Shown here: positions 3,001 through 59,424 of the stretch, piece after piece
Numbering within the stretch: the stretch's first letter is position 1
How the letters are laid out: each line of letters starts with the position of its first letter
NCBI GenBank assembly: GCA_009746045.1
Contig: RPFO01000156.1
Coordinates: 4,240,591 to 4,304,590 of the forward strand
Source: Mesostigma viride
Taxonomy: Eukaryota > Streptophyta > Mesostigmatophyceae > Mesostigmatales > Mesostigmataceae
Reading direction: 5' to 3'
DNA length: 64,000 nt
Position numbers and translations under genes: made by a program
Notes under the pieces: model-generated
Told to the model about the DNA's origin: nothing
What the model saw: only the letters and a program-made list of their open reading frames with translations
Database searches by the model: none

Positions 3001-6000
3001 CATGGTGGCATGGTGAAGGATTCATGGTGGCATGGTGAAGGATTCATGGTGGCATGGTGAAGGATTCGTGGTGGCATGGTGAAGGATTCATGGTGGCATG
3101 GTGAAGGATTCATGGTGGCATGGTGAAGGATTCATGGTGGCATGGTGAAGGATTCATGGTGGCATGGTGAAGGATTCATGGCGGCATGGTGAAGGATTCA
3201 TGGTGGCATGGTGAAGGATTCATGGTGGCATGGATGGTGAAGGATTCATGGTGGCATGGTGAAGGATTCATGGTGGCATGGTGAAGGATTCATGGTGGCA
3301 TGGTGAAGGATTCGTGGTGGCATGGTGAAGGATTCATGGTGGCATGGTGAAGGATTCATGGTGGCATGGTGAAGGATTCGTGGTGGCATGGTGAAGGATT
3401 CATGGTGGCATGGTGAAGGATTCATGGTGGCATGGTGAAGGATTCATGGTGGCATGGTGAAGGATTCATGGTGGCATGGTGAAGGATTCATGGTGGCATG
3501 GTGAAGGATTCATGGTGGCATGGTGAAGGATTCATGGTGGCATGGTGAAGGATTCGTGGTGGCATGGTGAAGGATTCATGGTGGCATGGTGAAGGATTCA
3601 TGGTGGCATGGTGAAGGATTCATGGTGGCATGGTGAAGGATTCATGGTGGCATGGTGAAGGATTCATGGTGGCATGGTGAAGGATTCATGGTGGCATGGT
3701 GAAGGATTCATGGTGGCATGGTGAAGGATTCATGGTGGCATGGTGAAGGATTCGTGGTGGCATGGTGAAGGATTCATGGTGGCATGGTGAAGGATTCATG
3801 GTGGCATGGTGAAGGATTCATGGTGGCATGGTGAAGGATTCATGGTGGCATGGTGAAGGATTCATGGTGGCATGGTGAAGGATTCATGGTGGCATGGTGA
3901 AGGATTCATGGTGGCATGGATGGTGAAGGATTCATGGTGGCATGGTGAAGGATTCATGGTGGCATGGTGAAGGATTCATGGTGGCATGGTGAAGGATTCG
4001 TGGTGGCATGGTGAAGGATTCATGGTGGCATGGTGAAGGATTCATGGTGGCATGGTGAAGGATTCGTGGTGGCATGGTGAAGGATTCATGGTGGCATGGT
4101 GAAGGATTCATGGTGGCATGGTGAAGGATTCATGGTGGCATGGTGAAGGATTCATGGTGGCATGGTGAAGGATTCATGGTGGCATGGTGAAGGATTCGTG
4201 GTGGCATGGTGAAGGATTCATGGTGGCATGGTGAAGGATTCATGGTGGCATGGTGAAGGATTCATGGTGGCATGGTGAAGGATTCATGGTGGCATGGTGA
4301 AGGATTCATGGTGGCATGGTGAAGGATTCATGGTGGCATGGTGAAGGATTCATGGTGGCATGGTGAAGGATTCATGGTGGCATGGTGAAGGATTCATGGT
4401 GGCATGGTGAAGGATTCATGGTGGCATGGTGAAGGATTCATGGTGGCATGGTGAAGGATTCATGGTGGCATGGTGAAGGATTCATGGTGGCATGGTGAAG
4501 GATTCGTGGTGGCATGGTGAAGGATTCATGGTGGCATGGTGAAGGATTCGTGGTGGCATGGTGAAGGATTCATGGTGGCATGGTGAAGGATTCATGGTGG
4601 CATGGTGAAGGATTCATGGTGGCATGGTGAAGGATTCATGGTGGCATGGTGAAGGATTCATGGTGGCATGGTGAAGGATTCATGGTGGCATGGTGAAGGA
4701 TTCATGGTGGCATGGTGAAGGATTCATGGTGGCATGGTGAAGGATTCATGGTGGCATGGTGAAGGATTCATGGTGGCATGGTGAAGGATTCATGGTGGCA
4801 TGGTGAAGGATTCATGGTGGCATGGTGAAGGATTCATGGTGGCATGGTGAAGGATTCGTGGTGGCATGGTGAAGGATTCATGGTGGCATGGTGAAGGATT
4901 CATGGTGGCATGGTGAAGGATTCATGGTGGCATGGTGAAGGATTCATGGTGGCATGGTGAAGGATTCATGGTGGCATGGTGAAGGATTCATGGTGGCATG
5001 GTGAAGGATTCATGGTGGCATGGTGAAGGATTCATGGTGGCATGGTGAAGGATTCATGGTGGCATGGTGAAGGATTCATGGTGGCATGGTGAAGGATTCA
5101 TGGTGGCATGGTGAAGGATTCATGGTGGCATGGTGAAGGATTCATGGTGGCATGGTGAAGGATTCATGGTGGCATGGTGAAGGATTCATGGTGGCATGGT
5201 GAAGGATTCATGGTGGCATGGTGAAGGATTCATGGTGGCATGGTGAAGGATTCATGGTGGCATGGTGAAGGATTCATGGTGGCATGGTGAAGGATTCATG
5301 GTGGCATGGTGAAGGATTCATGGTGGCATGGTGAAGGATTCGTGGTGGCATGGTGAAGGATTCATGGTGGCATGGTGAAGGATTCATGGTGGCATGGTGA
5401 AGGATTCATGGTGGCATGGTGAAGGATTCATGGTGGCATGGTGAAGGATTCATGGTGGCATGGTGAAGGATTCATGGTGGCATGGTGAAGGATTCATGGT
5501 GGCATGGTGAAGGATTCATGGTGGCATGCATGGTGACGGATTCATGGTGGCATGGTGAAGGATTCATGGTGGCATGGTGAAGGATTCATGGTGGCATGGT
5601 GAAGGATTCATGGTGGCATGGTGAAGGATTCATGGTGGCATGGTGAAGGATTCATGGTGGCATGGTGAAGGATTCATGGTGGCATGGTGAAGGATTCATG
5701 GTGGCATGGTGAAGGATTCATGGTGGCATGCATGGTGAAGGATTCATGGTGGCATGGTGAAGGATTCGTGGTGGCATGGTGAAGGATTCATGGTGGCATG
5801 GTGAAGGATTCATGGTGGCATGGTGAAGGATTCATGGTGGCATGCATGGTGAAGGATTCATGGTGGCATGGTGAAGGATTCATGGTGGCATGGTGAAGGA
5901 TTCATGGTGGCATGGTGAAGGATTCATGGTGGCATGCATGGTGAAGGATTCATGGTGGCATGGTGAAGGATTCATGGTGGCATGCATGGTGAAGGATTCA

Positions 6001-7216
6001 TGGTGGCATGGTGAAGGATTCATGGCGGCATGGTGAAGGATTCATGGTGGCATGGTGAAGGATTCATGGTGGCATGGTGAAGGATTCATGGTGGCATGGT
6101 GAAGGATTCATGGTGGCATGGTGAAGGATTCATGGCGGCATGGTGAAGGATTCATGGTGGCATGGTGAAGGATTCATGGCGGCATGCATGGTGAAGGATT
6201 CATGGTGGCATGCATGGTGAAGGATTCATGGTGGCATGCATGGTGAAGGATTCATGGTGGCATGGTGAAGGATTCATGGTGGCATGGTGAAGGATTCATG
6301 GTGGCATGGTGAAGGATTCATGGTGGCATGGTGAAGGATTCATGGTGGCATGGTGAAGGATTCATGGTGGCATGGTGAAGGATTCATGGTGGCATGGTGA
6401 AGGATTCATGGTGGCATGCATGGTGACGGATTCATGGTGGCATGGTGAAGGATTCATGGTGGCATGGTGAAGGATTCATGGTGGCATGGTGAAGGATTCA
6501 TGGTGGCATGGTGAAGGATTCATGGTGGCATGGTGAAGGATTCATGGCGGCATGGTGAAGGATTCATGGTGGCATGGTGAAGGATTCATGGTGGCATGGT
6601 GAAGGATTCATGGTGGCATGGTGAAGGATTCATGGTGGCATGGTGAAGGATTCATGGTGGCATGGTGAAGGATTCATGGTGGCATGCATGGTGAAGGATT
6701 CATGGTAGCATGGTGAAGGATTCATGGTGGCATGGTGAAGGATTCATGGTGGCATGGTGAAGGATTCATGGTGGCATGGTGAAGGATTCATGGTGGCATG
6801 GTGAAGGATTCATGGCGGCATGGTGAAGGATTCATGGCGGCATGGTGAAGGATTCATGGTGGCATGGTGAAGGATTCATGGTGGCATGGTGAAGGATTCA
6901 TGGTGGCATGGTGAAGGATTCGTGGCGGCATGGTGAAGGATTCATGGTGGCATGGTGAAGGATTCATGGTGGCATGGTGAAGGATTCATGGTGGCATGGT
7001 GAAGGATTCATGGTGGCATGGTGAAGGATTCATGGTGGCATGGTGAAGGATTCATGGTGGCATGGTGAAGGATTCATGGTGGCATGGTGAAGGATTCATG
7101 GTGGCATGGTGAAGGATTCATGGTGGCATGGTGAAGGATTCATGGTGGCATGGTGAAGGATTCATGGTGGCATGGTGAAGGATTCATGGTGGCATGGTGA
7201 AGGATTCATGGCGGCA
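1..7216. repeat. 22-bp minisatellite array, ~325 copies
   Basis: Head-to-tail copies of a 22-bp unit (GAAGGATTCATGGTGGCAT plus GGT) fill the first 7.2 kb and run off the left edge. Variants are: a 26-bp unit with an extra CATG (spelling CATGCATGG), common before ~900 and again between 5500 and 6700; an A-to-G change (TTCGTGG); and a T-to-C change (CATGGCGG). Because 22 is not a multiple of 3 and stops recur, no long reading frame survives, so the array is not coding. The G-variant positions repeat with an offset of 1086 bp (1120/2206, 1340/2426, 1516/2602, 1762/2848, 1828/2914, 1872/2958), which shows higher-order duplication. The array ends at a GGCGGCATTC junction. Confidence 0.97.
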
Positions 7217-7478
7217 TTCATACCTGTGAGACAGCCATGTAGCATGCTGTTGCCTTCAACAATCGCGAGTACTTTCTTGCATGTAAGGACAACTTCTGGG
7301 GTATTCTTACTTAACCCACTTCTGTGTGTCCAGGGAGGCGTTAAATTTTTGTGGTCGGCAACATCGGATGATCTAAGTGTCACCGGTGTGGCTGCAAACA
7401 TCTGGTGGGCCAACATAGTATTAATTCCGCGTTTTAAAACCTGTTCGCTTCTTTTTGGGATGAACCGGCCCTTGAAAC

Positions 7479-9209
7479 GTGCCGTGCATTCGATTGAGGG
7501 GACTGGCTTGCTTGCCGCGTTTCCAAAACGACACTCCCACCTTTATGACTTGCTGCTGCCCTCCTCCCCTGGCTGGCATGGCCGCCCCTCTGCCATCCTC
7601 CATGGTGGTGCGCTGTTTGCCAGAGTGTAACTTTGCGCAGGACGTTGGGGATGCGGTGCTCGCGTGCCCCACCAGCTTTGCGTGCGTGATCTCGGCTACG
7701 GTGGCGCTCAGCTGCGCAAGCAACGACGAGGTTCCCCTCACGCCCGCCGACCTGCAGGCCGACATTGCCGCCGCACTGGGCCAGCCGCCCTGCGCGGTGC
7801 AGCTGTCGCTGGAGGAGGCCAACACGGCCAACGACATCTACACGCTGGACGTCACCGTCTACCAGGCGTCGGCGGCGGATGCGGACCAGCTCAAGGGCTT
7901 GATCGAGGCGCCCAGCTTCACCACCGTGCTGCAGCTGTCCTTCCTCTCCGCGGGCATCCCCTCGGCGCAAGTCACCTCGCTCACGGGCGCGTGCGCGGCC
8001 CCGGGGGCCACCTCCGACCCGCACTTCACCACCGGGTCGGGCGCCCGCTTTGACTTTATGGGCGTGCCGGGCGAGAGCTACTGCGTGCTGACCAGCCCGC
8101 AGGTGCACGTGAACACGCGCATGACAAGTGGCGCCGGAGCGGTGGCCGGTGCCAGCGGTGCCAGCTCCCTGCCCTTGCCCACCTGGATGGACGCTGTGTC
8201 GGTGCGACACCTGTCAGACGTTGTGGTGGTGACGGCGGACGGCCCCGCAGGGACACCGTTTGCTCAGTCGTACGGCACCATCATGGTCAACGGGGTATGT
8301 CAGCCTCCCTGCCGCGCAACAAAAAATTTCTTGGTGGCTGGGCCCAGCTAATCTGCATACATTCTTTGCCTCCCTGTTTGCCTGCTTCTTCCCCTTTTCT
8401 CCTAGCTGAGAGCACAGTCACCTCTGTTTCCTTCTACTTCCCCAAAGTTTTCTCAATGTCTGGCCCTTGTTGCTGCAAAGATACCCTCTAGGCAGTAACC
8501 GATAGCCCCTGTAGTTGGATGCAGTAGTACGCGTCGCAGCACACCTGTAGCCTGCCACAGGTCATCTACACAGCGTGCTTTTCTTTGGTGCACCCCAAGC
8601 CATGCACATGGTGTAGATCAAATGCTGGCCAGGTGCTAGCCAGGTTCTAGACACGTGCGGGCAGAGGAAGACACATGGGTCGTTGTGATGCAGCGTTGTG
8701 CATTTGCCAGGTTCTCCATCAGCTCTCTCCCTTGGTCATGGTGTTGACACGCTTGGTTGCTGTTAATCGAATGATGGACGTGCGCGTGCCAAGTCCCCGT
8801 CGTGTACCTTTGATGTGTGCTGCTGGGTCTACTCCTGCCCTGTTGGTCTATTTACTGCATGCAATTGCAGGTGGAGTCAATGGCTGGTTTGAGAAGCATT
8901 GAGCGGCTGTCGTCCGGCGCCACAATTCAACGCAAGAAGATGCGCACGACCATCACCATACCGGGAGTCATCACCCTCGAGATTGAGGTGGTGCGTGCCG
9001 CGTTCTGGGAGACGGGCAAGGGGCCGGGGAAGAACTTCCTCAACTTTGTGGTCAAGGACCACAACGCTGCGCTGGACATGCACGGCGTCCTGGGCCAGAG
9101 CCTGGGTGCCAATAGCCCGGCTGGCACCCCGTTTGCTGGCAGTGTCGAGGATTACAAGACGACCAGCATTCTGGCCACCGATTGCGCCAACACCAAGTTT
9201 TTCATGTAG
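7479..9209 (+). CDS. Root-cap/vWD-like secreted-type protein gene (two visible exons)
   Basis: Exon A ends at 8294 (donor GTATGT at 8295) and exon B starts at 8871 after TTGCAG. Both junctions are phase 0 in the same frame and the stop is TAG 9207-9209. The protein contains SDPHFTTGSGARFDFMGVPG followed by YCVLTSPQVHVNTRM, the hallmark of the plant root-cap/vWD-like family. Exon B ends with MHGVLGQSLG and ILATDCANTKFFM, matching the family's C-terminal HGVLGQTY and final Cys regions. The first ~80 residues before this domain resemble the degenerate repeats of algal extracellular proteins and are unassigned. The 5' end is uncertain: the first in-frame ATG is 7479, but a possible acceptor (TTTGCGCAG, ending 7640) suggests an upstream exon may be missing, and no signal peptide is visible. 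The family is structural/extracellular with no defined enzymatic role; location is inferred only from the family. Confidence 0.7.
8295..8870 (+). other. Intron of the root-cap-like gene
   Basis: A 576-bp GT-AG intron with donor GTATGT and acceptor CAATTGCAG after a pyrimidine-containing stretch. Removing it joins two phase-0 exons and unites the two halves of the root-cap domain. No repeat or ORF of note inside. Confidence 0.75.
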
Positions 9210-16555: not shown

Positions 16556-22294
<5,739 letters not shown>

Positions 22295-22509: not shown

Positions 22510-22563
22510 CGTAAGTAAGTACTTGCGTGCCATGCACTGAGGCATGCCACGAGTACTATGCTA
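22510..22563 (+). repeat. Dispersed ~50-bp repeat, copy 2
   Basis: GTAAGTAAGTACTTGCGTGC through GGCATGCCACGAGTACTATG matches 9820-9870. It lies immediately before the truncated RT fragment and may be part of the same inserted element. Confidence 0.6.
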
Positions 22564-22579
22564 CCTCATAGTAGTACAA

Positions 22580-23045
22580 TCTTATCTTGTTGATTGTTTT
22601 GCGGGTGACGTACACCAACAAGCTTTTGGCATCCCTATGGGCACTTGCTGTGCCGGGCTGCTTGCAAACCTTCATCTATACACTTCTGAGCTTGCATTCA
22701 TGGAGAATCTCATTGCCTCAAATGATGATGTTCTCATCAGGCGCTTTATCCACACATGCCGATATATTGATGATGTCATTGCTTTCTACAACCCTGATTT
22801 TGCAACCCATTTGTATATCACAACTGGTCTGCCTGGCATCCACCCGCAAGCGTACCTCACAATAAAGCTCACGTCGGAGGATAGTAGTTGCAATTACCTT
22901 GATCTTAGCATGACACAAAACAAGATGGGCTGGCGCACGGCTATCTATGATAAGCGCACGGATCCTAATTACCAGCGAATTCCTTTTATTCGCTACCCTG
23001 ATGTTCAGTCTCCGCTCCCAAGTGATCAGCGAAATATGGTGTTGT
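22580..23045 (+). pseudogene. Penelope-like reverse transcriptase fragment (5'- and 3'-truncated)
   Basis: Codes for QQAFGIPMGTCCAGLLANLH, then RRFIHTCRYIDDVIAF, then SSCNYLDLSMTQNKMGWRTA and IYDKRTDPNYQRIPF. GIPMGT..LLA and RYIDD are RT palm motifs, and the downstream YLDL..YDKR block is typical of a family I associate with Penelope-like elements, possibly the Naiad/Chlamys type known from green algae. Only the second half of the RT is present, and no endonuclease domain can be seen. It stops near 23042 just before the AT-rich edge of the HUH-Rep element. A second, longer copy is at 59425-62105. Confidence 0.75.
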
Positions 23046-23154
23046 TCTTAGTCGGGGTAAAATTGGCTCTTTTTTAGCAAATTTAGCAAATTAGCAAATT
23101 AGCAGAAGGCGGGGGCCGAGATTAATTAAGAGGTACCTTGAAATTAAATAAGAC

Positions 23155-23205
23155 GCATACCTCTATCGAGATATATTCTGATCGCATACCTCTATCGAGA
23201 TATAT
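23155..23205 (+). promoter_or_regulatory. Iteron-like direct repeats upstream of the HUH-Rep gene
   Basis: GCATACCTCTATCGAGATAT plus AT occurs at 23155-23176 and again at 23184-23205, identical over 22 bases with 29-base spacing. Tandem direct repeats of this size are typical binding sites (iterons) of rolling-circle Rep proteins. That role is inferred only from proximity to the Rep-like gene. Confidence 0.45.
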
Positions 23206-23354
23206 GTTCGGAGGCGAATTTCTATTGGCGTTAATTTGTACTATTGTACGACAGCTGTCAAGGGTGACGGCATGTACTGAAATCGCGGATACTTTCTAGA
23301 TCGATTGCGCATTCGACGGTTAAAAGGCAGAGCTGCGGTTGAAAGTACTGTACA

Positions 23355-23560
23355 GTACGTGGGGGGGACGGTGTTACAACGGCCGGGGGGGGGACGCAGT
23401 TATGGGGGGGGGGACGGTGTTACAACGGGGGGGGAACGCACTTATGGGGGGGGGGAACGGTGTTATCGGGGAAATGGACCAAAGAGGTGAGAGGGGAAAT
23501 GAGTATCAGCGAATCGTTAATGGGGGGAACGGTGTTACACCGGGGGGGAGTCGCAGTTGT
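23355..23560 (+). repeat. G-run tandem repeat upstream of the HUH-Rep gene
   Basis: About four imperfect copies of a ~37-bp unit combine runs of 6-10 G with ACGGTGTTACAACGG and ACGCAGTTATG. The spacing of the G runs would allow G-quadruplex formation on the plus strand. It lies about 350-550 bases before the Rep start codon. Confidence 0.75.
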
Positions 23561-23906
23561 CAGTTTCAAACCGAATATCTATTGGACCGTAGTTCTAGGA
23601 AATTGTAGATGGCGATTAGTTCGGCACTTCCGGGCGTCAGGCCCAGTAAGGTCCAGGTGGAAGTTTAGACACCTTGCAATCACAGAATAGCGGTTACAGG
23701 GATATTATTTAATGGAAATGGCCGACACGTTGGAAACTGATTGCGGTTACAAACCTTACGTCGTGTGTGATTGGCTGGATACTAACGGGGCACGAAGACC
23801 AAAGGCAGAAGGAGCGGCCACGCGTCACGATTCGTGTGATTGACAGGATACACGCGAATATAGGTGTGTGAACGAAGGGACCAAAAGAAAACGAAAGGCC
23901 GACACC

Positions 23907-26380
23907 ATGGCGGCGATGAAAAATCTGGTACAACAAGACCTCTTCAAGGACCTCGTTGGAAAAGTAAACAAGCAGAGAGTCGACTTAACTAACGCCATCA
24001 GGGACAAAAAGCTTAATCTGGACCGTGCTAACGAAGGAGTACAAGTACAAACAAAGAATGTAAATGCGGCTAAGGCAAGGTATCATGAACTCAAGACAAG
24101 GGAGGAAAAGCTCTGCGAGGAGAAAGTGAAAAAGGCGTACGAGACAACCGTAGAACCCCAACTCAAGACGCTAGAGCGGCTGAAAGTCGCGTTATGCAAA
24201 AAGGAACAACTGTGGGAGGGGGTGGTCAAACATGCAACAAATGAGGTGCTGTCGACACTTGAGACAATAGGGCCCCTTCTCTCCAACGCAATCAATAAAG
24301 GGGCAGCGGTGGATAGCGTGGATCTGACGGGGTCCCAGGCGGACGAGGATGAATTATTGAACTCCGTTTTGTCTGCTGCCGGCAAGCTTGCTGGGGGGTC
24401 ATCTGTAACCCCATCATCATCAACACAAACGTCCACAAAACAACATGGCCAAGACCAAAACGCCGGCAAGTCGCCCTGGCCCGGCAAGGGACTAAACGAA
24501 CCCTCGATTTTGACGAACGCAATGAGGAAACGCCTGCTTTTGAGCCGTCGCCAGATGACGACCCCGTCCATGACGACCACGCCGGCCCAGCACCCGCCAA
24601 CGACGCCGGACCACCTAGTTCATCCCAAAGAACGGGACTCGATGGATCCAGCACATGCGAACCTCCAGATTCTTGAGGACGACGTTGTGCCTGAGTTAAA
24701 CTGTGAAACAAGGCACCGGCGGCGCGGGCGGCATGCTATTTTAGACGATGCCTCCGAGGATGACGATGAAAACAATGTCGACAAGGAAGACGAACCAGAA
24801 GCAGAGCAAGAAGAGGATGAAGAAGTAGCAGAAGAGGAGGAAGGGGATGAGGTTGACGAAGAGGATCCCCCTCCACGTCGGGCCAAAAGATGTAAATTCA
24901 TAGATGATGAAGCTGGTGTTTCCGGTGATGACGAGGACAGCGATGGCGAAGGGGCCATTAAAAATCAGAATTTCATGTGCAACTGTTGCGAGCCGCCTTT
25001 CGTTGCCAGGAGCCAAGCTGGTCTCACCCGTCACGTAACATGCAAGATAAAGCGTGGACGGTAAGCCGCCGAATCCTTTCTAGGGTTTTTTTTTCCAACT
25101 TGTATTCTTGCCAAACTTGTCCACGTGAGTTTTTCTTTGAAAATTAATCATGTCTTTAAACCAATCTTGACCACAATCCTTGCAAAAAATCTGCATTTTT
25201 TTTTTTTAATGTACCCTTCTCGTCACAGCCAAGCAAGACAGCAACTACAAGAGCGTGAGGCTACCGCAACGGATGAGCAAGTCAACGTCGAAAAACAGCA
25301 CCAAGATCAAGCACACGAAACTGACGATTACATCCCATTGCGTCAACCCAAGCGCGCACGTGGGCCTACGGCGCTAAAAAATATGACACTCCACATCTCC
25401 ATTTCAGGGGGGGCTCGCGATCTTGACGATGATGAGCTTGGCAAGATAGAGGCCTTCCACCTAGCCAATGGCGGCAAGGGCATGTCAATTGTGGAGGAAG
25501 GAATACTCGAAATGCACAAGCACGTCCACATGCTCATTGACGTTGAGGCTACATCGGCCCATGCTGTGAAACTCAAGCTCAAGAAAGAACTTGGGTGGGG
25601 TGAACCAATAGATGAAAAGGGAAAACATGACAAAACCAAACCGAGCCTTGTGGCACGCCAAGTGAAGTCCAGCCACAAATTGAATTATTCAGGGATGATA
25701 GGCTATTTGCTTAAATCGGAAGAGCAGGAGGGGTTTCAGATTTTGTATTGCCATGGCATTGATGAGGATGAAAAGAAGAGGGGCGTATAGAATATTTATT
25801 ACACGGATCCCCCACTCTCAAGGGACGGTGCTCCTTGACCGCCTACAACTTACTTGAGCGTGCGGCGGTATACTGGTTTAAGCACCACAATAGTATTAGC
25901 TTGCGTCCAAACTTGATTAAAACCCTCGCCCACATGTTCAAGACGGGGCGATACTCGCTAGATGCTAGATTTCTTGCAGGTAGGGGCCTTGATTACCCAC
26001 GTGTACAAGCTGCATTCGAGATCATGGTTGAACCTAGGCTTGGTGAACATTCTTTGTCAGCTATAGCACGCGGCCTTGAAAGAGCCCTGTTTAATCCGCG
26101 TGAGCGGTACTTTGAATCAGACGATGTAGATGCAGTTTTTCCAGATGCACGCGCGGCTCAACGCCAAGAACGCGCTGCACGCACAACTGAGGAGCCACCG
26201 GCCTCTGGGTATTTTGACATAGATGCCATCATCGAAGAGGTGCGTAAGCCCCTTCGTGATGATGACGAATTGACAGATGAGCAACTCCTTGACAAAGTCC
26301 TGCGTGACGAACGAAATAAGGATGCCCCAGATATCTTGTTGTCATCGGACTCCGACTCTGACATAGCATTCTATGAGTGA
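23907..26380 (+). CDS. HUH (Y1) Rep endonuclease gene of a Replitron-like transposon
   Basis: The start ATG at 23907 has an excellent context (ACACCATGG). Exon 1 runs to 25060; donor GTAAGC at 25061, acceptor CGTCACAG ending 25228, a phase-2 junction that restores the frame used by the Rep domain. The N-terminal ~380 residues are a predicted coiled coil (residues ~10-130), a low-complexity linker, an acidic Glu/Asp run and a C2HC finger (CNCCEPPF..GLTRHVTC). Exon 2 has a basic PLRQPKRARGP patch and three rolling-circle motifs in order: MTLHISIS (motif I), HKHVHMLIDV (HUH, motif II) and IGYLLKSEE (YxxK, motif III, single tyrosine). Near 25775-25790 the frame shifts at a GGGG run; the downstream frame continues with IEYLLHGSP and a helical, acidic tail ending IAFYE at 26380. 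The likely role is nicking and joining single strands during rolling-circle transposition. No helicase domain is seen, which argues against a Helitron. The family name is inference from motif layout and algal context. Confidence 0.68.
25061..25228 (+). other. Intron joining zinc-finger and HUH exons
   Basis: 168-bp, T-rich GT-AG intron. The in-frame TAA that appears to end the first reading frame overlaps the donor (G|GTAAGC), and splicing joins phase 2 to phase 2 without a stop. The decayed second copy has the same arrangement, with donor-like GTGAGC at 28799 and acceptor-like GCGGCGCAG near 29359. Confidence 0.72.
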
Positions 26381-26383
26381 ATT

Positions 26384-27274
26384 TTCATGATATGGTATAT
26401 ATGATTCTCATAATTAAATGGCACTATGTTGCTTTCTTGTGATTTGTGTAAATTTGTTAATTTTGGTAATTTTGTTAATTTTGTTAATTTGTAAACTGGG
26501 GACAACCTAGTCAGTAAAAAAAGTCTTAGTCAGTTGCATCGTTTTTCCCGTCTTTGTTCTTCTCTTGTAGATTTCATCTAGACTCTGGTTGAACTCTTGC
26601 ATCGTTTGTTGGTCAAAGACTATGACCGAGACACTATGCTCCATCAAGTGAGTTGTTTTTTGCAACGTCACCCACATGTGTTCGGTGCTCCCCCTTGGCA
26701 CAAGCTCTACCAACAGGTCGTGGACCGGCTGGATCGCGTAGTATCTCCGAGCATCTAAAACCTGTGATGCCAGATTTCCTTTGCGGCCGTTCCGGGCTTG
26801 GCATGCACTGTCCAGATTCGTTGTCCCCACCATCGCTTCGCTACAGTATACATGATGTTTTCTGGCATACGTGGGCGTTTAGTTCACGCTAAACATTGAA
26901 AGTGATGTCCTCCGGATTTTTGCCTTAGCGCCGTGTGCAGTTTTCTTGGACGTTTGGAAACATGGCATGGCTGGCGTACTGACTGACTAGCTAGACCATT
27001 TCGGTGGTTTTCCATTTGCGGGTATTTCCTCCTAAATGGTGGGAGAGCGATCGCAGCGATGGTGCTCACCAAGTACACTCCCGGCCATGTAGGCTCGAAA
27101 CACATACCCTGACTCAAGCATGAGCTGTTTCCGGCCCCACCGTCTAGGTCATGTAGTCGGTGAAAAAATGGTGCCGTGGAAGCCGGTGAAAAAATGGCTT
27201 TGTGTTTCCAATTTCAAAGTTTCGCGCAAAGCTAGGCAAAAGGAGGGTCGCGGGTCCGGGGAACAGCGGAAAGG
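26384..27274. other. Interval without supported gene between the two Rep copies
   Basis: 26450-26500 is a run of AATTTTGTT-type words; 23075-23103, before the gene, has AGCAAATT words that are loosely their inverted counterpart, so these may mark the element edges. Minus-strand open frames at 26833-26507 and 27117-26884 look protein-like in part but have no recognisable domain. 26898-26968 matches 31752-31832 inside the CACTA-type element (GGATTTTTGC and CCGTGTGCAGTT..GGACGTTTGGAAACATG). Confidence 0.5.
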
Positions 27275-27284
27275 TGACCAATAA

Positions 27285-27401
27285 TTAATTAATTAATTAG
27301 ACTCGTGCTCCCGTTGGGGAGTCACGGAGCATTAACCCCGATGAATGGATGGATGGGTGCACACATTCCTACCGGTCTAATCTATCTACATTGGCTACAT
27401 A
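27285..27401 (-). mobile_element. Very short LINE-tail insertion
   Basis: Tail ATTAATTAATTAATTAG is followed by ACTCGTGCTCCCGTTGGGGA and GTCACGGAGCATTAA, the 3' end of the LINE family seen elsewhere here. GTGACCAATA occurs on both sides (27275-27284 and 27402-27411), so the insertion is only ~117 bp. The distal ~65 bases do not match the other LINE copies. Confidence 0.7.
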
Positions 27402-27699: not shown

Positions 27700-29698
27700 G
27701 CCAAAAAGAAATGGCGATAAAAAAAGCTTGCGCAGCAAGACCTCGTTAGAGCCTGGTTGAAGAACTGAACAAAGAGCGCGTAGAGCTTGCAGACGCGATC
27801 AGAGATCGAAAGAACCAATTTGCGCGTGCCGCGGAGGGCATCACGGCACAACAAGGCAACGTGGTTAGCGCCAAAAAATATATCTCGACATTAAAGAAAC
27901 ATAAGAGAAAGCCTGCGCCGGAGAGAGTGGGGAAAGTGTACACTAACTGCATCTTGAAGTCCCCTTACATACCCTTGAGCGGCTCAAAGTCGCGCAGCAG
28001 AGACAAGAAGATCTCTGGAATGGCGTGGTGGCGCAGAAAACGCAAGAGGTGCTATCGTTGCTGGAGACTGGCGATTGGCCCGTTGTTATCTTGAAAACGC
28101 GTTGTCAACCCAAGCAACGTTGACGCCCACCGTTGGCCTGACGGATTCTCAGGCGGACGACAATCCGCTCTTCGATTCGGTCCTGTCAGCCGCGCGCTGA
28201 AAAAACGGGTTTCGGTCAGCTGCCAGTGAACACCACCCCGTCGTCAACCCAAACCACTTACCATGGCAAAGGGAAAGAAGGCGGTTGGAACCTCTTCAGG
28301 AAAGAAGCGGAAATTGGACGTCGGGGCGGCCGGCAACGAAAAGCCCACTGTGGCCGTCGAGCCCAACCCCGACGATGACTCTGGTGGATGAACGACCTGA
28401 TTCTTCCCGGCGCTGGAACGGGACCCAGTGGATCCACCGGAGCCGGACCCTCGCAGTCTGGAGGACCAGTTGACGCCTGAATTGCCGCGCCTGAGGCGTG
28501 GGCCGGCGACATGGGCGGGGCGCTGTTATATTTTTTATGAAGTCCTCCTCGGAAGAGGAAGAGGAGGTCAGAAAAATGACAGCATGCACCCCCGGCTCAG
28601 AAAAATTAAGTCAGATTTCAATTTGTGGATGACAAGGCAACTGTTGGTGGGTGACAACGACGACGACGAAGAAGATGATTCTGAAGGGGCGGTCGATCAA
28701 TATGTGAGGGGGGAAATCACGTGTAATTGCTGCGAGCCCCCAGCTTTTGGAGCAAAAAGCAAGCGAGGTCTCTCCACACATGTGACACGGAAGGCCAAGT
28801 GAGCTCAGTACAGTGATATGACATTTTAAAATCAGTTTTATTTATTATGACATTTTTTAATCAGCTGAAAAGAGGCCTCCCTACGTCACCTACACCACTC
28901 TAAGTACTGACTATCATTTACATTGCGCCACGCAGGCCTGCCGGCTGGCGCAGGTACAAGGTGTAGTGACTGCATGCCCATCACAGTTGCGCCACGCCTG
29001 GCGGCTGGCGCATAACAAGGTCTAGTGACGTATGTTAGAAGCTACCTAGGCCTGCACTCCGGAACCACACTCAGCCTCGGCACAAAAAGGGCCGGCCGGT
29101 GCAGTACCCTTGTGACAAGCGCTAGTCTCACGCTACCTCCGGCAGGTCAGTCCCCTTTGAGCCCGTCCACGCGTCATGTATGAAATGAGCAAAGCTCAGC
29201 AATTTTTGTTAAGTTTGGAATACCAGTTCGATGCCCCCTTTTTGCAAGGAGCAAATAATTATTCTACAATTAAGTGGTAACATTGTTTTATCTATTTTGC
29301 TGCCATCTTTGGTCACGTTCTATTCCACCTCAAATGGCTGGGGTACATAGAGCGGCGCAGGCTACAAGAATGTGAGCCGGCTGCAAACATGAATGACCCT
29401 GATGAGGCGCGCAAAAATGATGACGTCAACGATGAAGGAGAAGAAGAAACGCAAGATTTTGTGCCCTTGCGCCAAAAGCGCAAACGCGGCCCGGCCGGCT
29501 GTGATGAAGAACTTCACCGGGGCTGCACATCACGGTTCAAGGATCGGCAGTCGCGATCTAGATATGCTGAAGACTGACTGGGCAAGATTGCGGCCTTTCA
29601 TTTGGCCAATCAACGGGGGGAAACGGGAATGTCAATTGTAGAAGAGGGGCCTCTTGAGATATGCACAAGCATGTACACATGGACGTTCAAGACATATT
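27700..29698 (+). pseudogene. Decayed second copy of the HUH-Rep gene
   Basis: Fragments in different frames align with the first copy: ATGGCGATAAAAAAAGC then CAGCAAGACCTCGTTAGAGC near 27703 (copy 1 has MAAMKNLVQQDLFKDLV); a coiled-coil part to ~27900; EITCNCCEPPAFGAKSKRGL then STHVTRKAK near 28710-28802 (zinc finger, last Cys lost); and FVPLRQKRKRGPA at 29458. The HUH motif region survives near 29660 as ATGCACAAGCATGTACACAT. Several frameshifts and stops are present. The intron position holds the repeat at 28863-29203. The gene ends just past the HUH motif at the LINE insertion (target duplication 29699-29713), so motif III is absent. Confidence 0.72.
28863..29203 (+). repeat. ~340-bp dispersed element R, copy 1
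   Basis: Starts AGCTGAAAAGAGGCCTCCC and ends GAGCAAAGCTCAGCAA. Copies 2 and 3 are at 34621-34961 and 36191-36531, about 90 percent or more alike by eye. Inside are two ~50-bp sub-repeats, each able to fold (GCGCCA..TGGCGC), and the 3' end has a small hairpin (TGAGC, 3-base loop, GCTCA, intact in copies 2 and 3). No ORF. This copy sits in the intron of the decayed Rep gene. Confidence 0.8.
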
Positions 29699-30311
29699 TA
29701 GTGAGCTATTCATTAATTAATTAAACACGTGCTCCCGTTGGGGAGTCACGGAGCATCGAAGTGCTTTTAATCCCTGTGTGTGCACAACAGGACACTAGGA
29801 ACTCGGCTTTGAGAATGGGTGAGAAATGGTGAGAAAAAGGGTGAGAAAGGTGAGAAAAAGGGTGAGAAATGGGTGAGAATGGGTGAGAAAGGTGAGAAAA
29901 AAGGGTGAGAATGGGGTGAGAATGGGTGAGAAAACACGTTTCTCACCCGGGTGAGATTGCCCCAAAAAGGTGAAAAAAGGGGGAAAACGTGAGAAAAATC
30001 TCAAAAAACAGGACGTGAGATAAGTGAGAAAAACGGGAGGTGTGAAACGTGAGAAAAGTGAGAAAATCAGGACGTGAGAAAAGTGAGAAAAGTGAGAAAA
30101 ACAGGACGTGAGAAAAGTGAGAAAAGTGAGAAAACACAGCGCTGAAAAACACACCCATAATAATGCAATATGCTGGCAGCAGACACATGCATGCAGTGCC
30201 AGTAACAACCGCTGTTCAAAACAGCACGAACAATAATGATTTTTTCATTAAATGTTTGAATAATTTTAATGTTTACAGCTGCAAGAACCCGTTGATTCAA
30301 CTATTCAACAC

Positions 30312-30450: not shown

Positions 30451-31844
30451 CTATCATCAAATACTATATGGTAGCTACTGGCTAACAAAGCGGGCCGGTC
30501 GACAGGGCGTCACATGCTGACTTGAAAGTGGAACCGCTTGCATTTTACTCTCGTGGTCCCTGCAAGAAATAAAGCAAACCGACACAATATACGCAAGAGG
30601 AAAAGAAATCAGATCCTTGACATAGATGTAAGCGTTCTACAAGGAAGAGCTCACCAGCACCTAACGGTCCATGCAGCAAATGTGTAGAACCCAACACTCA
30701 CTCTTATGGCAAAGCAGCCCCATGTGGCAAGGCAGCACCATACACATGAATCACACCATGCGCCAGATGTCACACGAGCAAGGCACAACGTTGTCGTCGG
30801 ATCAGAAAGCAACAAACGTGAAAACGCTAGCGGCCCAAATCTGAGATTCCGCGGAACACAGAAAATAAGAAAGCTCAGAAGCTACCAGCAAGGGATCGAA
30901 CATATGACCTTTGGCATGATTTCGCGGCTGTGTGAGTCTCCTGATCCGAAGGCATCTCACTTAATTAACGTTTCGAAACAGCCAAACTGCGGAAAATCTC
31001 TTACCGGAGAGAGTTGCCAATATCAAGGAGACAACCAGCGCAGGCCAGAAATCGGGAGAATCCGGACCATGGTAGCTCGAGCCTGCCGTTATCTTGTCCG
31101 CGTTTTCGAGTCGTGCAGGATTATGAATATGAATGGAGATGGAAATGTGTAGCCTTGTGCATTGAAATTACGGCTGGCTGACGTGAAGAGCGACTACATG
31201 ACCTACACGGTGGGGCCGGAAACGGCTTGCTTGATTGTGTTTCATCGTGGGCAACGAGTCCAACAACTACTTTCTCTGGGCGGCAAACTGCGGCAAATTG
31301 AACGCAAACCTCATCATGAAATCTTGACCGTCGAAATGTAACAATCCGACGACTTATGCAGTATGCCGCGTAATTTTCTGTTGTGGGAGAGCCGTTGGGC
31401 CGGTTCCCGACGCGGGCGACCAGTGGTTTGCGTTAAGTTAACTTAGCTGAAGTTCCCCAAGCCGCATGATGGCTCTCATCGACGGCCTCAGTCTATTGAC
31501 GCGTCGGCCCGATTTTGGCGGCACCCAATTTGACCCCAACGGCACCTACCGACAAAGGGCATACGTACGTTTCACGCGCACCACGACCTTCGAGCTCTGC
31601 TATGGCGGTGGTGCCGTGGGGCCCGCATCAGACTGCGGGCCCTTATCTGCTTTGGCGGTGCTGCCGTTGGGCCCGCATCAGAATTCAGGCCCTTTATGCA
31701 TGCGGGCCATGCATGTTACTTTTTTAGTCTTCTGCATACAAATATGAAGCAATGAGGTCGTGTCCTCTGGATTTTTGCACTGCAAATGGCATTTGCACCG
31801 TGTGCAGTTCCTGGACGTTTGGAAACATGCATGATGGCATGTGG

Positions 31845-32373
31845 CTACGCGGACCTGCTGCGGTCAGCGACCGCCTCCACCACCGACGCCATCGCCACGA
31901 AGCTCCAGGAGCTGGAGGACCACCGCCAGGCCCAGCAACGGGAGGTCACCGACCGCGCTCGCCGCGAGTGCCGAGTGGTGCTACGTCGCTTCCCCCAGAA
32001 GCCAGGTGAGACGTCAACCTCTCTTGCTGACGAGCTCAAGAACCAGCTTCTTACCCTCATGGGCCTGGTAGGTGAGGTAGAACTGCGTGGGTGCCACCGC
32101 CTTCCCCACTCACGGGACAAGGCGGCTCCCCCACCAGTCCTACTCACCTTCCCCTCCCCTGAGGATAAGCAGCGGTTCCTCTCTCGTCGCAAGCGGTTGC
32201 ACGACCTCACCTGGACGCTGGATGACGACCTCACCCCCGCTCAGCAACAGCAGCGACGCGACCTGTGGCCGGAATACCTCCGCCATAAGCAGGACCCCCA
32301 GAAGCCCAAGGTGTACTGGAGGGGCGGGGACCTGATGATCAACCACAAGATGTGGACGCCCCCAGCGGGCTAG
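31845..32373 (+). pseudogene. LINE ORF1 C-terminal fragment
   Basis: Open from the truncation to TAG at 32371-32373, ~175 codons. Lys/Arg-rich PEDKQRFLSRRKRLHDL and the terminal WRGGDLMINHKMW block recur on the minus strand at 61201-60910 and in diverged form at 38010-38100 ([15 protein letters not shown]). It lacks the N-terminal coiled coil that the 61-kb copy retains. Confidence 0.7.
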
Positions 32374-32795
32374 AGTAGCAATAGCCCTAGCTTGTAACCA
32401 TTGGCGTCACTGCCGCTAAGGCAGCCATGCCTAGAATGTTGCCTAGCTGTGCCAACACACCTAGTCACGTGCCGCCAACGCACGGTACACAACCAGCCAT
32501 AGCCTTAGCCTAGTCCTAGTACAGCCATGCTACGCCCTGGCTATGTTCAGATTACTTGCCCACGCTCCTTGCTATGATATGCTCACATGGGTCTTATTGC
32601 ACCCACAGTTTGCCGGATCGTTAGCCTGTCCTTTTAGCTAGCCGCGCCCGATTGCAGCTGTGGCATGCCTTTGGCATGAAGGAGACTGGGGGTCTCTGCC
32701 CTTTCTCCTGTAGTGCACACACAGGGATTAAAAGCACTTCGGTGCTCCGTGACTCCCCAACGGGAGCACGAGTTTAATTAATTAATTAATTAATT
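31845..32795 (+). mobile_element. L1-like LINE, 5'-truncated, with ORF1 C-terminal part
   Basis: Begins in ORF1 at the GCGGACCTGCTGCGG word that is also present in the copy at 60442-61840. It encodes a short helical stretch, then RRFPQKPGETSTSLADELKN, then LLTFPSPEDKQRFLSRRKRL and KVYWRGGDLMINHKMWTPPAG ending TAG at 32371-32373, which fits an RRM-like nucleic-acid chaperone domain of L1-type ORF1. A 3' UTR of ~400 bases follows, ending ACTCCCCAACGGGAGCACGA and a TTAA-repeat tail (32773-32795). No endonuclease or RT remains. The clade assignment rests only on ORF1 style and is tentative. Confidence 0.7.
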
Positions 32796-33821: not shown

Positions 33822-33912
33822 GTTAGGTTCGCCAGAATTGGCGAGGCTTATTATAAGGCCGTACGCGTGAGAAAGTACATGTATAGGAATAGGGGATACA
33901 TAAAATCCGTCA

Positions 33913-34407
33913 ATCCATCCATCCATCCATCCATCATCCATCCATCCATCCATCCATGATTCCATCCATCCATCCATCCATGATTCCATCCATCCATCCA
34001 TCCATCCATCCATCCATCCATCCATCCATCCATCCATCCATCCATCCATCCATCCATCCATCCATCCATCCATCCATCCATCCATCCATCCATCCATCCA
34101 TCCATCCATCCATCCATCCATCCATCCATCCATCCATCCATCCATCCATCCATCCATCCATCCATCCATCCATCCATCCATCCATCCATCCATCCATCCA
34201 TCCATCCATCCATCCATCCATCCATCCATCCATCCATCCATCCATCCATCCATCCATCCATCCATCCATCCATCCATCCATCCATCCATCCATCCATCCA
34301 TCCATCCATCCATCCATCCATCCATCCATCCATCCATCCATCCATCCATCCATCCATCCATCCATCCATCCATCCATCCATCCATCCATCCATCCATCCA
34401 TCCATCC
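33913..34407. repeat. (CATC)n microsatellite, ~0.5 kb
   Basis: Nearly pure tetranucleotide with a few CCATGATTCCATCC interruptions near the left end. Because the period is 4, the translation is a repeating Ile-His-Pro-Ser or Trp-Met-Asp-Gly frame on either strand; these are not proteins. Confidence 0.97.
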
Positions 34408-34592
34408 ATTTCTTGTTTTTGGTCCATTGGAGTTCCTTCCCACCAAGAGAAACATTTATTTTACATTTTTGTGTGCTAGGCTTTATACGGACAGCCTATA
34501 CCACACCTTCAAACTCAGTGCACATCATTATCAAGTTGGTTATTGTAGCACCATGCTGGGGGCCCAGCATACTCGAACACAAGGTGTTGCCC
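34408..34592 (+). repeat. ~185-bp module A, copy 1
   Basis: TTCTTGTTTTTGGTCCATTG to CACAAGGTGTTGCCCC. An identical-looking copy lies at 34965-35149. This copy follows a (CATC)n array; the other follows element R directly with only a short AAATACAT stub. Confidence 0.88.
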
Positions 34593-36190: not shown

Positions 36191-36531
36191 GCTGAAAAGA
36201 GGCCTCCCTACGTCCCCTACACCACTCTAAGTACTGACTATCATTCACATTGCGCCACGCAGGCCTGCCGGCTGGCGCAGGTACAAGGTGTATACTGACT
36301 GCCAATCACAGTTGCGCCACGCCTGGCGGCTGGCGCAGGTAACAAGGTCTAGTGACGTACGTTAGAAGCTACCTAGGCCTGCACTCCGGAACCACACTCA
36401 GCCTAGGCACAAAAAGGGCCGCCCGGTGCAGTTCCCTCGTGACAAGCGCTAGTCTTACGCTACCTACGGCAGGTCGGTCCCCTTTGAGCCCGTCCACGCG
36501 TCATATATAAAATGAGCGAAGCTCAGCAAAT
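36191..36531 (+). repeat. Element R, copy 3
   Basis: AGCTGAAAAGAGGCCTCCC to GCGAAGCTCAGCAAA, running straight into the second (CATC)n array. Confidence 0.85.
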
Positions 36532-37820
36532 CCATCCATCCATCCATCCATCCATCCATCCATCCATCCATCCATCCATGATTCCATCCATGATTCCATC
36601 CATGATTCCATCCGTCCATCCATCCATCCATCCATCCATCCATCCATCCATCCATCCATCCATCCATCCATCCATCCATCCATCCATCCATCCATCCATC
36701 CATCCATCCATCCATCCATCCATCCATCCATCCATCCATCCATCCATCCATCCATCCATCCATCCATCCATCCATCCATCCATCCATCCATCCATCCATC
36801 CATCCATCCATCCATCCATCCATCCATCCATCCATCCATCCATCCATCCATCCATCCATCCATCCATCCATCCATCCATCCATCCATCCATCCATCCATC
36901 CATCCATCCATCCATCCATCCATCCATCCATCCATCCATCCATCCATCCATCCATCCATCCATCCATCCATCCATCCATCCATCCATCCATCCATCCATC
37001 CATCCATCCATCCATCCATCCATCCATCCATCCATCCATCCATCCATCCATCCATCCATCCATCCATCCATCCATCCATCCATCCATCCATCCATCCATC
37101 CATCCATCCATCCATCCATCCATCCATCCATCCATCCATCCATCCATCCATCCATCCATCCATCCATCCATCCATCCATCCATCCATCCATCCATCCATC
37201 CATCCATCCATCCATCCATCCATCCATCCATCCATCCATCCATCCATCCATCCATCCATCCATCCATCCATCCATGATTCCATCCGTCCATCCATCCATG
37301 ATTCCATCCATCCATCCATCCATGATTCCATCCATCCATCCATCCATCCATCCATCCATCCATCCATCCATCCATCCATCCATCCATCCATCCATCCATC
37401 CATCCATCCATCCATCCATCCATCCATCCATCCATCCATCCATCCATCCATCCATCCATCCATCCATCCATCCATCCATCCATCCATCCATCCATCCATC
37501 CATCCATCCATCCATCCATCCATCCATCCATCCATCCATCCATCCATCCATCCATCCATCCATCCATCCATCCATCCATCCATCCATCCATCCATCCATC
37601 CATCCATCCATCCATCCATCCATCCATCCATCCATCCATCCATCCATCCATCCATCCATCCATCCATCCATCCATCCATCCATCCATCCATCCATCCATC
37701 CATCCATCCATCCATCCATCCATCCATCCATCCATCCATCCATCCATCCATCCATCCATCCATCCATCCATCCATCCATCCATCCATCCATCCATCCATC
37801 CATCCATCCATCCATCCATC
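36530..37820. repeat. (CATC)n microsatellite, ~1.3 kb
   Basis: Tetranucleotide array with CCATGATTCCATCC interruptions near 36580-36615 and 37272-37335. It starts exactly at the end of element R copy 3. No coding potential. Confidence 0.97.
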
Positions 37821-37861
37821 CGCCGAATTCGTCCAGAATTTGCAAGCGTACATAAGGGTGA

Positions 37862-44082: not shown

Positions 44083-44262
44083 CAGGAAGAAGCTCATCAA
44101 GGAGGTGGTAGCTCAGGTCAAGGCGGTGTTCAAGGGTCCCCAGCAAGGTAAGAAGGCAGGGGGGTCATCCAAGCAGCAGGGGAAATCAGACAAGGGGGGA
44201 AAGGGGAACCAGGCAGTAAGGCAGGGCCCTCTCAGGGGCCTAGTCAAAAGGTAAGCCTCACG

Positions 44263-46241
44263 ACTCCACCCTGTACTGCACCAGGTGCTCATGCAAGGGG
44301 CATGAGAGGGATGATTGCTGGAAGGGCAAACCCGAACTTGGATCTGATGTGGATGTGTGCCCAGGTTGCTGGGAGCCCCGCCACCCGTTACCTGCAGGGG
44401 GACGCTGCAACAAGCCCAGGAAGGGAGCCTCGACGGGGCGCACCCCAAAACAAGCCAGCACTCAGGACGACTGTAAGTCTCCTGTACCCTGGTTTCTTAA
44501 TGGCCGTGTACCCTCTATTTGCTCTGTATTGCCTGACAGTGAGGACGTGGATTGGGACCTGGCTTATGACATGACGTTAGCACAGGTGGCCCAAGATCCC
44601 ACTATAGCCTCCTTAGATGCAGCAGCAGATAAGGTTATATCCTATGCCAGGTTAGCCCAGCAGCTACACAAGGCAATGGGGCATGAGGCAGTGGCAGAAA
44701 GGCTGGCCAATAAAATTGATGGCCGTGACCTGGAACAGATGTGCAGGCATGTCAGGAAGCACTGTGAAGCGTGCCAACTGCATGCACCTAAACCCAAGAG
44801 ATGGCATGTGGCCACCCCACCACTGGCTAGAGGAAAGCTAGTAGGGGATGTGATACACCTGGTGAAGGACACGGTGTATTACTTGGTCCTAAAAGATGCC
44901 TGGTCTAGGTTTGTGGTGATAGAACCCTTGCCAGGCATGGCCAATGAACAACTGCACAGAGCCCTGCTGATTGCACTAGCACGGTATCATCCTCAGGAAA
45001 AACTAATGCTGGATCAGCAGTTCACGTGGATACAAGATTATCCTGATCTGCCCAAGATAGACATTGCTGGGGCTCAAGATCATGAACGCCAGGGGATGAT
45101 TGAACGTACCATGCGTGCTATCAGGGACCTCATAAAGAAAAATGAGTCCAGGACAGCAGAGTCTGGGAGCTATGCTGATAGGACAGCGTGGGCAGCTGAG
45201 GTGTGCAGAACTCTGAACACCAAACCCCTCATGTCTTCTCCTTTTGGTGAAATCACATCAATTGGCCTGCAATCAGGTAGCTACTCTCAGGAGGTACTAG
45301 ACCACTACAACACGCAAAGGCAACACTTGGCCAAGTTGCTGGCAAAAAAGGATAAAAGTAATGCCAGGCCTGTGTTTGAAGTGGGGGATCAGGTACTCTA
45401 CTATAGGGAGGGGGAAGGGAACAAAGCCCACTCTGGTAGATGGCATGGTCCAGCTGAAATCATCAGGTTGTCAGAAACAGGTGACACGGTGACTATTCAG
45501 CATCACAGAGAGCGAATGGTTGGCAAGCATAGACTGAAGCTTTATTACCCTCCTTTGGCAGACGTGTCAGGGGTAGAATTCTTGGACATGGATTCAGAGC
45601 CTCAGTCTGGTGGGTTGGTCTCACCCAGTGAACTGGCCAGGGACATAGCTGATGCAAGCAACACAACCATAGACGCTCCTGTGTTCCTCAGTGGTGCAGC
45701 CCCACCACAGCCCACTGGTCCAACTGGGCAGGAGGAACGTGCACTGGATGAGCAGCAGGTCGCTCCTCCCTCATCTCAGGAACAGCCACACGAAGCAGCA
45801 GATCCTGTTGTCCCCAGGAATAAATTTGCTGAGGCTCTAAAAGCTCTACATAGAGCACACACTGCCAAGGCACAAATGGCAGCAGGTGCAGCACAAGTCA
45901 ATGCTGTGGGTGAATCTAACCAGGATCCCAGTATTCTGGCAGTAGACACACAGGCACAGGTGAGCATCATCAGTGCACAAGCTGTATCTGGCCTAAGTCT
46001 GCAACGCTCGCCCTGGGCTAGAGTGTCAGATTTTTCAGGCAAAACAAAAATGGCAGTCAAAGGCCAAGTGCTAATTCCCATTCTGGGTGTGCCCACTCCC
46101 TTCCAGGTAGTAGAGGGCTACAAGGGGAATGCACTGCTGGGGGAACCATTTGTCTCATACCCTGGAGTAGTCATCTCAGCTGGGAGGTTGAGTGTGACTG
46201 GGGTGGGGCAGGTCACCCTGGACCATTTAAAATTCCTTTAA
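44263..46241 (+). CDS. pol: Copia CCHC knuckle, integrase and protease ORF
   Basis: One continuous frame. CTRCSCKGHERDDC (44275-44316) is a CCHC knuckle, followed by a second Cys/His cluster. Integrase: zinc-binding LHKAMGHEAV..HCEACQLHAPK, core GDVIHLVKDT..KDAWSRFVVIE, then LMLDQQFTWIQ (an altered second Asp block) and HERQGMIERTMRAIRDL carrying the catalytic Glu; a GRWHGPAEII region follows as a C-terminal DNA-binding fold. After a Pro/Gln linker an aspartic protease is read: LAVDTQAQVSIISAQAV (DTxA active site, Gln in place of Gly) and NALLGEPFVSYPG (LLG flap partner). The order integrase then protease is opposite to standard Copia. The stop at 46239-46241 follows a slippery heptamer. Confidence 0.8.
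46226..46232 (+). promoter_or_regulatory. -1 ribosomal frameshift heptamer (T TTA AAA)
   Basis: In the integrase-protease frame the codons are CAT TTA AAA TTC CTT TAA, so T TTA AAA fits X XXY YYZ exactly and lies two codons before the stop. Slipping by -1 continues as IPLTQISDGLEAAIN into the reverse transcriptase frame without a stop. This would set the ratio of protease-integrase to RT. No pseudoknot was evaluated. Confidence 0.65.
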
Positions 46242-58916: not shown

Positions 58917-59424
58917 TACAAATTATAGGCATGTAGATGATAGAGTAACTCTTGAACTGCAAAAAAAAAACTGGACTCAATTCGGCCACTGGCACTGCCT
59001 GAAACATGCCCAAAACCCACCAGCCCTAAGAATGGGATTGGTTGGAGGTTGCTAGCAATTTGCGAAAATGTGTAAGTGCGGTCATGCATACTCGGCACAC
59101 CACAGTGGCCACCAACCCGGCCAATCAACTCATTTCCTTTCAGGCATGATAGGAAAACATGCAAGTTGCATAAACATATTGCAGTTATATTATACCTTAG
59201 TATGTGTGAGAGCCTATGCATGCACGTATAGATAGGGAATGGCGTTGCATGGATACCTACCCACACAAGGGTTGTATAGTATTGGTGTTAACCACCAATA
59301 TACTGGTTACTAGGTTAAGCATATTTGAATCGTTTCTAACAAGAATAGACATGGCTTAAACTGTTTAATTGCCTTGCCATGACATGGGCAACATACTTGC
59401 TGGCACATGTTGACAGTGGTTTAT
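58917..59424 (+). mobile_element. TTAA-element family D, truncated copy D3
   Basis: Matches D1 47681-48155 in order: AATATAGGCATGTA-type start, TTCGGCCACTG, AAGTGCGGTCAT, CCAATCAACTCATTTCC, GAGAGCCTATGCATGC, ACCACCAATATA. Both ends are missing: the left edge meets the DIRS terminus and the right edge meets the Penelope-like RT at ATCACCAATTGTAGAGC. Confidence 0.72.

Follow-up and report, generated by a model that had tools for sequence, protein, structure and literature searches.

Within a 64,000-nucleotide stretch of the Mesostigma viride genome (contig RPFO01000156.1, positions 4,240,591 to 4,304,590, forward strand; hereafter the window; genome paper, PMC6947507), we analysed a transposable element that carries two overlapping open reading frames (ORFs): ORF1, and ORF2, a spliced gene for a Rep protein with an HUH endonuclease domain (Table 1). 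We read this element as a Replitron, that is, a DNA transposon, presumably copy-and-paste, with a Y1 HUH endonuclease and without a helicase, here with two overlapping genes, and we give this reading a probability of about 0.88. Both ORFs are broken in the window copy, and intact relatives are present in the genome.

Table 1. Features of the element and of a related copy, in window coordinates
Feature	Position	Strand	Basis or remark
Whole element, ~3.47 kb, frame-broken in two places	23049..26522	+	blastn match starts and ends in other copies
Left terminal repeat TAGTCGGGGTAAAA	23049..23062	+	AGTCGG opens all 12 other left ends printed
Right terminal repeat TAGTCAGTAAAA and A-run	26508..26522	+	exact in 12/15 right ends printed, window included
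Left TCTTAGTC, a candidate target-site duplication, 4 (TCTT) to 8 bp long	23046..23053	.	
Right copy of TCTTAGTC	26524..26531	.	
Three TTAGCAAA repeats near left end	23074..23098	+	
Three TTAACAAA repeats near right end	26453..26487	-	inverted relative to the left-end set
G-rich direct repeats, 5' region	23358..23558	+	
ORF1, charged, coiled-coil-like protein; frame broken near 24490	23907..24676	+	256 amino acids in most intact copies
First exon of ORF2 (Rep), with a MAK start lying within ORF1, an acidic stretch and a C.CC..H finger (24978-25060); frame break near 24490	24445..25060	+	
ORF2 intron, GT-AG, phase 2	25061..25228	+	
Second exon of ORF2, with HUH Y1 and C-terminal domains; frame break between ~25770 and 25790	25229..26380	+	
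Motif I, MTLHISIS	25383..25406	+	HUH alignment
Motif II, HKHVHMLIDV (HUH)	25515..25544	+	HUH alignment
Motif III, IGYLLKSEE (putative catalytic Tyr)	25698..25724	+	HUH alignment
Rep C-terminal domain	25772..26377	+	94.5% identical to P0001; frame differs from HUH exon
Decayed second copy, from a diverged subfamily	27720..29690	+	ORF1 pieces 27753-28194, MAK ATG 28263, finger 28716-28799

The Rep endonuclease and its family

An earlier note on this DNA, made from the letters alone, had placed rolling-circle Rep motifs I, II and III in HUH order at this locus, and all three were located in that order in exon 2. In motif II the H.H core, and in motif III the GYLLK, were invariant in six of six aligned sequences, down to 32–35% identity, and the first His of HKHVH was replaced by Lys in two diverged relatives (L056 and L057). 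In the same two sequences the Tyr six residues upstream of the GYLLK Tyr is Phe, which leaves one motif-III Tyr conserved throughout (6/6); this pattern suggests a Rep of the Y1 type, in which that Tyr is the predicted catalytic residue. A structure prediction of the HUH domain with AlphaFold2 (AF2; three sequences, predicted local distance difference test (pLDDT) 73.7, predicted template-modelling score 0.70) gave the order strand-helix-strand-strand-helix-strand-helix-strand, in agreement with the HUH assignment. The full-length AF2 model was of low confidence (mean pLDDT 39.1) and its fold matches were not used; a sequence search of the PDB returned nothing significant for either Rep or ORF1.

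The only Pfam-A family matched by window exon 2, up to an expectation value (E) of 10, was PF21859 Replitron_HUH, at 25.3 bits (E 2.1e-5). Residues 340–571 of the spliced window protein, used as a protein query, recovered two jgi/Mesvir1 gene models, P0001 (599 amino acids, 85% identity) and P0002 (412 amino acids, 63%), both of which carry PF21859 as precomputed annotation; a search with alignment A1 found nothing beyond P0002. The scores of P0001 (26.6 bits), P0002 (26.0 bits) and the window protein all lie below the curated cut-off of 28.5 bits, at E 8e-6 to 2e-5, and three diverged relatives from the same genome pass it (L055, 37.7 bits; L056, 30.0 bits; L057, 29.3 bits). The Pfam family, the shared direct-repeat ends, the size and the many copies make the Replitron identity firmer than the initial suggestion of a Replitron-like transposon. 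The element is a known kind of transposon, here in a two-ORF form.

Consistent with the lack of a visible helicase in the earlier note, none was significant among the Pfam matches of Rep and ORF1, the single UvrD match (E 0.17) being to the ORF1 of L055. No superfamily-3 helicase or capsid family appeared among the Pfam matches of either ORF, a missing profile match being no proof of absence. This result bears on whether the gene is an endogenous Rep captured in the genome from a circular Rep-encoding single-stranded (CRESS) DNA virus or a plasmid, as the resemblance of GYLLK to CRESS Rep motif III and the proteins named viral Reps among Foldseek matches to viral models might suggest. Against it stand the many copies with common ends and a common intron, and the fact that Pfam names the domain Replitron rather than viral Rep; we consider a captured Rep very unlikely. 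Searches of PHROGs profiles gave nothing below E 0.07, Rfam gave no match in the window, and pattern candidates for relatives in viral contigs and in bacterial and archaeal genomes yielded 0 confirmed by tblastn.

The proposed exon structure also agreed with the gene models. The sequence of the predicted phase-2 intron is absent from P0001 and P0002, and in 12 of 13 copies the finger is directly followed by a GTAAG donor, the exception being L055, which has no GTRAG there. The finger itself had been described as C2HC; its C.CC and one His are kept, but the fourth ligand is not conserved, the position reading HVTA in P0002 and HVTR in the decayed copy, with none in L055 or L056. The C-terminal ~200 residues, likewise assigned to this protein, are in frame with the HUH domain in P0001, whereas in the window copy the second frame break places them out of frame.

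ORF1 and the apparent fusion

The acidic, coiled-coil and zinc-finger parts had been described as one unusual N-terminal extension of the endonuclease. The acidic stretch and the finger do belong to Rep, but the coiled-coil-like part is the separate, overlapping ORF1. A search with the coiled-coil stretch recovered gene models of its own, P0003 (256 amino acids, 98%) and P0004 (204 amino acids, 92%), and the window still encodes, in a different frame that ends with a stop at 24674–24676, the last ~60 residues of P0003. The N-terminus of P0001, MAKKKTLASRPGLARG, corresponds to the ATG at 24445, in a frame other than that of the ORF from 23907. In the intact copy L034a, where ORF1 spans 824–1594, ORF2 begins at 1362, so that the two share 233 nucleotides.

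The ORFs were scanned in the window copy and 15 further copies from 14 of 20 loci (L033, L038, L039, L044, L046 and L050 left out), a sample that is not random because loci were picked mostly from the best matches. Both ORFs were open in 9 of these 16 copies (L032, L034a, L034b, L035, L036, L037, L040, L047 and L048), with an ORF1 of 253–263 amino acids, an ORF2 exon 1 of 206–218 codons and an exon 2 that is uninterrupted throughout. Five copies were broken (the window copy, L031, L042, L043 and L045), and two (L041 and L049) had no ORF1 start by the search pattern used. It is the frame break near 24490 that makes ORF1 and Rep look like one protein in the window copy.

A single protein uniting coiled coil, acidic part, finger and HUH domain, possibly produced in intact copies by programmed frameshifting between ORF1 and ORF2, would account for the window frame, which is open from 23907 to the intron, and for the way the two ORFs overlap in separate frames, an arrangement seen in genes that frameshifting joins. 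We nevertheless rejected it as improbable, since all nine intact copies have an ORF1 stop inside the Rep gene together with an ATG of Rep's own, and the gene models keep the two proteins apart. One broken copy can thus make two overlapping genes resemble a novel fusion.

ORF1 shows a weak heptad periodicity (in 15 windows the lowest counts were 51 and 71 among 2000 shuffles, uncorrected), and a coiled coil is therefore only likely. A weak match to GrpE was also seen for the ORF1 of L055 (L055:1010-1963; E 0.0012, 19.0 bits, cut-off 25.8), and for P0003 and P0004 (E 0.06–0.07).

To describe selection on the two ORFs, the ratio of nonsynonymous to synonymous changes (dN/dS) was estimated from four pairs (L034a with L048, L047 and L042; L047 with L048) with a simple Nei-Gojobori count; the pairs are non-independent and carry no significance test. 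ORF1 outside the overlap gave 0.17, 0.14, 0.20 and 0.14, ORF2 from motif I onward 0.05, 0.06, 0.15 and 0.07, and ORF2 exon 1 past the overlap 0.33–0.60. Within the overlap the values were 0.60–1.27 for ORF1 and 0.50–0.75 for ORF2, and therefore neither frame is strongly kept there. Comparison with the decayed copy gave counts of differences at codon positions 1/2/3 of 22/19/38 and 12/9/22 in two ORF1 blocks, 33/28/39 in the first ORF1 block, 10/10/20 in the tail and 6/7/17 in a HUH block. By its dN/dS outside the overlap, ORF1 looks to be under purifying selection. Low dN/dS would also be expected of a host gene domesticated from a Replitron, but dispersed near-identical copies with defined ends, and a window copy that is broken, make such a gene barely credible.

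The same layout recurs in diverged families. In L055, whose HUH domain is ~60% identical, an ORF1 that is 34–35% identical to P0003, and that aligns well with the L034-type ORF1 (34%), is followed by a MAK start that overlaps it, by a finger of the C.CC..H type and by exon 2. The MAK start, the finger and exon 2 are likewise present in L056 and L057 (HUH ~35% identical); upstream, L056 carries an overlapping ORF at the position of ORF1, and this ORF is broken in L057. The similarity of the L056-type ORF1 to the ORF1 described here is weak (hhalign P 7.7e-5, probability 62%, scores of a kind that coiled coils bias), so that their homology is only suggestive. The decayed copy downstream in the window retains part of the HUH domain, to ~29690.

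Copies, ends and surroundings

In the genome searched (440 Mb, 2,243 contigs), a search with the HUH query returned 121 matches, of which 30 (window included) are nearly full-length at 96–100% identity, and one with the ORF1 query returned 90; these matches are pieces and lower bounds rather than copies. Five intact copies (L032, L034a, L034b, L036 and L040) differ pairwise by 0–7 mismatches and 2–8 gap columns over ~3,436 positions, which indicates recent movement of the element family. The window copy differs from these five by 28–35 mismatches and 40–43 gap columns.

The ends of the element were consistent between copies: blastn matches started at 23048–23050 in 12 other copies and ended at 26520–26525 in 14. 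A T precedes AGTCGG in some left ends, and those of L031, L035, L043, L045 and L047 vary beyond these six letters. At the right, CCTAGTCAG was present in 15 of the 15 ends printed (window included), followed by TAAAA in 12; the ends of L033, L037 and L039 deviate from TAGTCAGTAAAA. The terminal direct repeats TAGTCGGGGTAAAA and TAGTCAGTAAAA are imperfect, with TAGTC and GTAAAA as their exact parts. No terminal inverted repeats were found, the inverted arms detected lying away from the element ends, and folding of the ends as single strands revealed no hairpin out of the ordinary (z −0.70 to 1.43). The repeat TTARCAAA occurs 14 times in the window against 2.5 expected, with three subterminal units at each end in inverted orientation, which are candidate binding sites.

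Credible target duplications were seen in two of six copies or arrays compared. That of the window copy may be only 4 bp, because AGTC is also the start of the element, and a shared word of at least 8 arose in 24 of 2,000 shuffles of its small end zones. The second, in L034, is 5 bp and has an empty-site paralogue: its joined flanks (89 letters left, 35 right) align to an element-free site at window 30791–30909, and the lengths, 124 against 119 letters, fit a 5-bp duplication of TCAGA, the gap position not being printed. No clear duplication was present in L032, L040 or L043, and the right end of L036 adjoins another element end. The ends of L035 were printed but lie outside this six-copy comparison.

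L034 contains two complete copies head to tail (1255–4695 and 4697–8135), and in L036 further left ends lie behind the right end, the first of them five letters on. L038/L039 is a tandem array of a truncated Replitron unit with 2,825-bp spacing, in which two printed junctions are identical and internal; this array need not be of rolling-circle origin.

The insertion site resembles a Penelope-like reverse-transcriptase fragment (22541–23053 and 26532–26800) split by the Replitron, an assignment made from its motifs; Pfam found nothing on this flank. A second Penelope-like piece (59349–62072) is split by a reversed insert resembling a long interspersed nuclear element (LINE), and its DNA is in part 82–88% identical to the first. 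A repeat bearing a TTAA-repeat tail occurs four times (27282–27331, 29708–29792, 32706–32790 and 60475–60559); these copies are perhaps 3' tails of a LINE-like element, for which an ORF1-like frame without Pfam match lies at 31756–32373. Elsewhere in the window are a satellite array (1–7217, 22-bp unit, ~324 copies), long ATCC microsatellite arrays (33905–34409 and 36530–37821), and frames resembling a Copia-like long terminal repeat retrotransposon (44244–46897; rve E 3.3e-4, RVT_2 E 0.0016, both below cut-off). A tyrosine recombinase match on the minus strand (51407–51823; Phage_integrase E 3.5e-4, 20.8 bits, below cut-off) is perhaps part of a DIRS-like element; the minus-strand frames beside it, to 54458, had no Pfam match. 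A frame at 17296–18324, which contains a long run of glutamines and a single C2H2 finger (E 0.012, below cut-off), is possibly a host transcription factor; its TFIIA match (E 1.6e-8) falls just short of the cut-off and probably reflects composition.

Proposed mechanism and comparison with known systems

Replitrons were reportedly first described by Craig in 2023 in PNAS, and to our knowledge little is known so far of their mechanism. By analogy with the HUH family, Rep would be brought to the element ends by its finger, by ORF1 bound at the subterminal repeats, or by both. It would nick the short terminal direct repeat and remain attached to the 5' phosphate by its GYLLK Tyr, while the free 3' end would be extended by a host polymerase, displacing one strand. 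The displaced strand would be joined to a new site, where fill-in would leave a few duplicated bases, and failed termination at the second end would read through into head-to-tail copies. The computed support for the Replitron reading consists of profile membership, ends common to the copies, dispersed copies of near-identical sequence, one head-to-tail pair and dN/dS values that are low in ORF1 and ORF2 alike.

Our best guess, from dN/dS and position, is that ORF1 acts as a DNA-binding or oligomerising partner of Rep. We tentatively extend this to a two-component model, which we rate slightly short of an even chance: in Mesostigma Replitrons, ORF1 would be an accessory protein, kept in position across families ~35% identical in HUH, needed with Rep for movement and taking the place of the helicase or host factor used elsewhere. 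Found in a unicellular streptophyte alga, a family that combines copies of near-identical sequence and common ends with a head-to-tail pair and a second gene of low dN/dS would allow tests of how a helicase-less HUH transposon replicates and of whether it needs a partner protein.

The Reps of CRESS-DNA viruses have an HUH fold and a Y..K motif III, in viruses that possess a superfamily-3 helicase domain and a capsid gene; the element described here differs in its transposon ends and intron, with no helicase or capsid family found. Helitrons are likewise eukaryotic HUH transposons, with two catalytic Tyr and a fused helicase, and tandem copies of them are known. The present element differs in keeping one motif-III Tyr in 6/6 and in having no helicase family matching ORF2, and Helitron insertion between A and T without target duplication (available text of PMC10741241) does not fit it. 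Replitrons are only named or cited in the available portions of PMC13231165 and PMC13253262, and no further paper on Replitrons in Mesostigma was among the matches listed. The available text of PMC10741241 gives them direct terminal repeats of 5–11 bp, a size of 0.9–4 kb and target duplications of 2–8 bp. The Mesostigma element shares with them the Replitron_HUH endonuclease, one invariant motif-III Tyr, no helicase found, a size of 3.47 kb and short direct terminal repeats, with small target duplications credible in some copies; it differs in a second, overlapping ORF1 with low dN/dS, where that text mentions an HUH endonuclease only.
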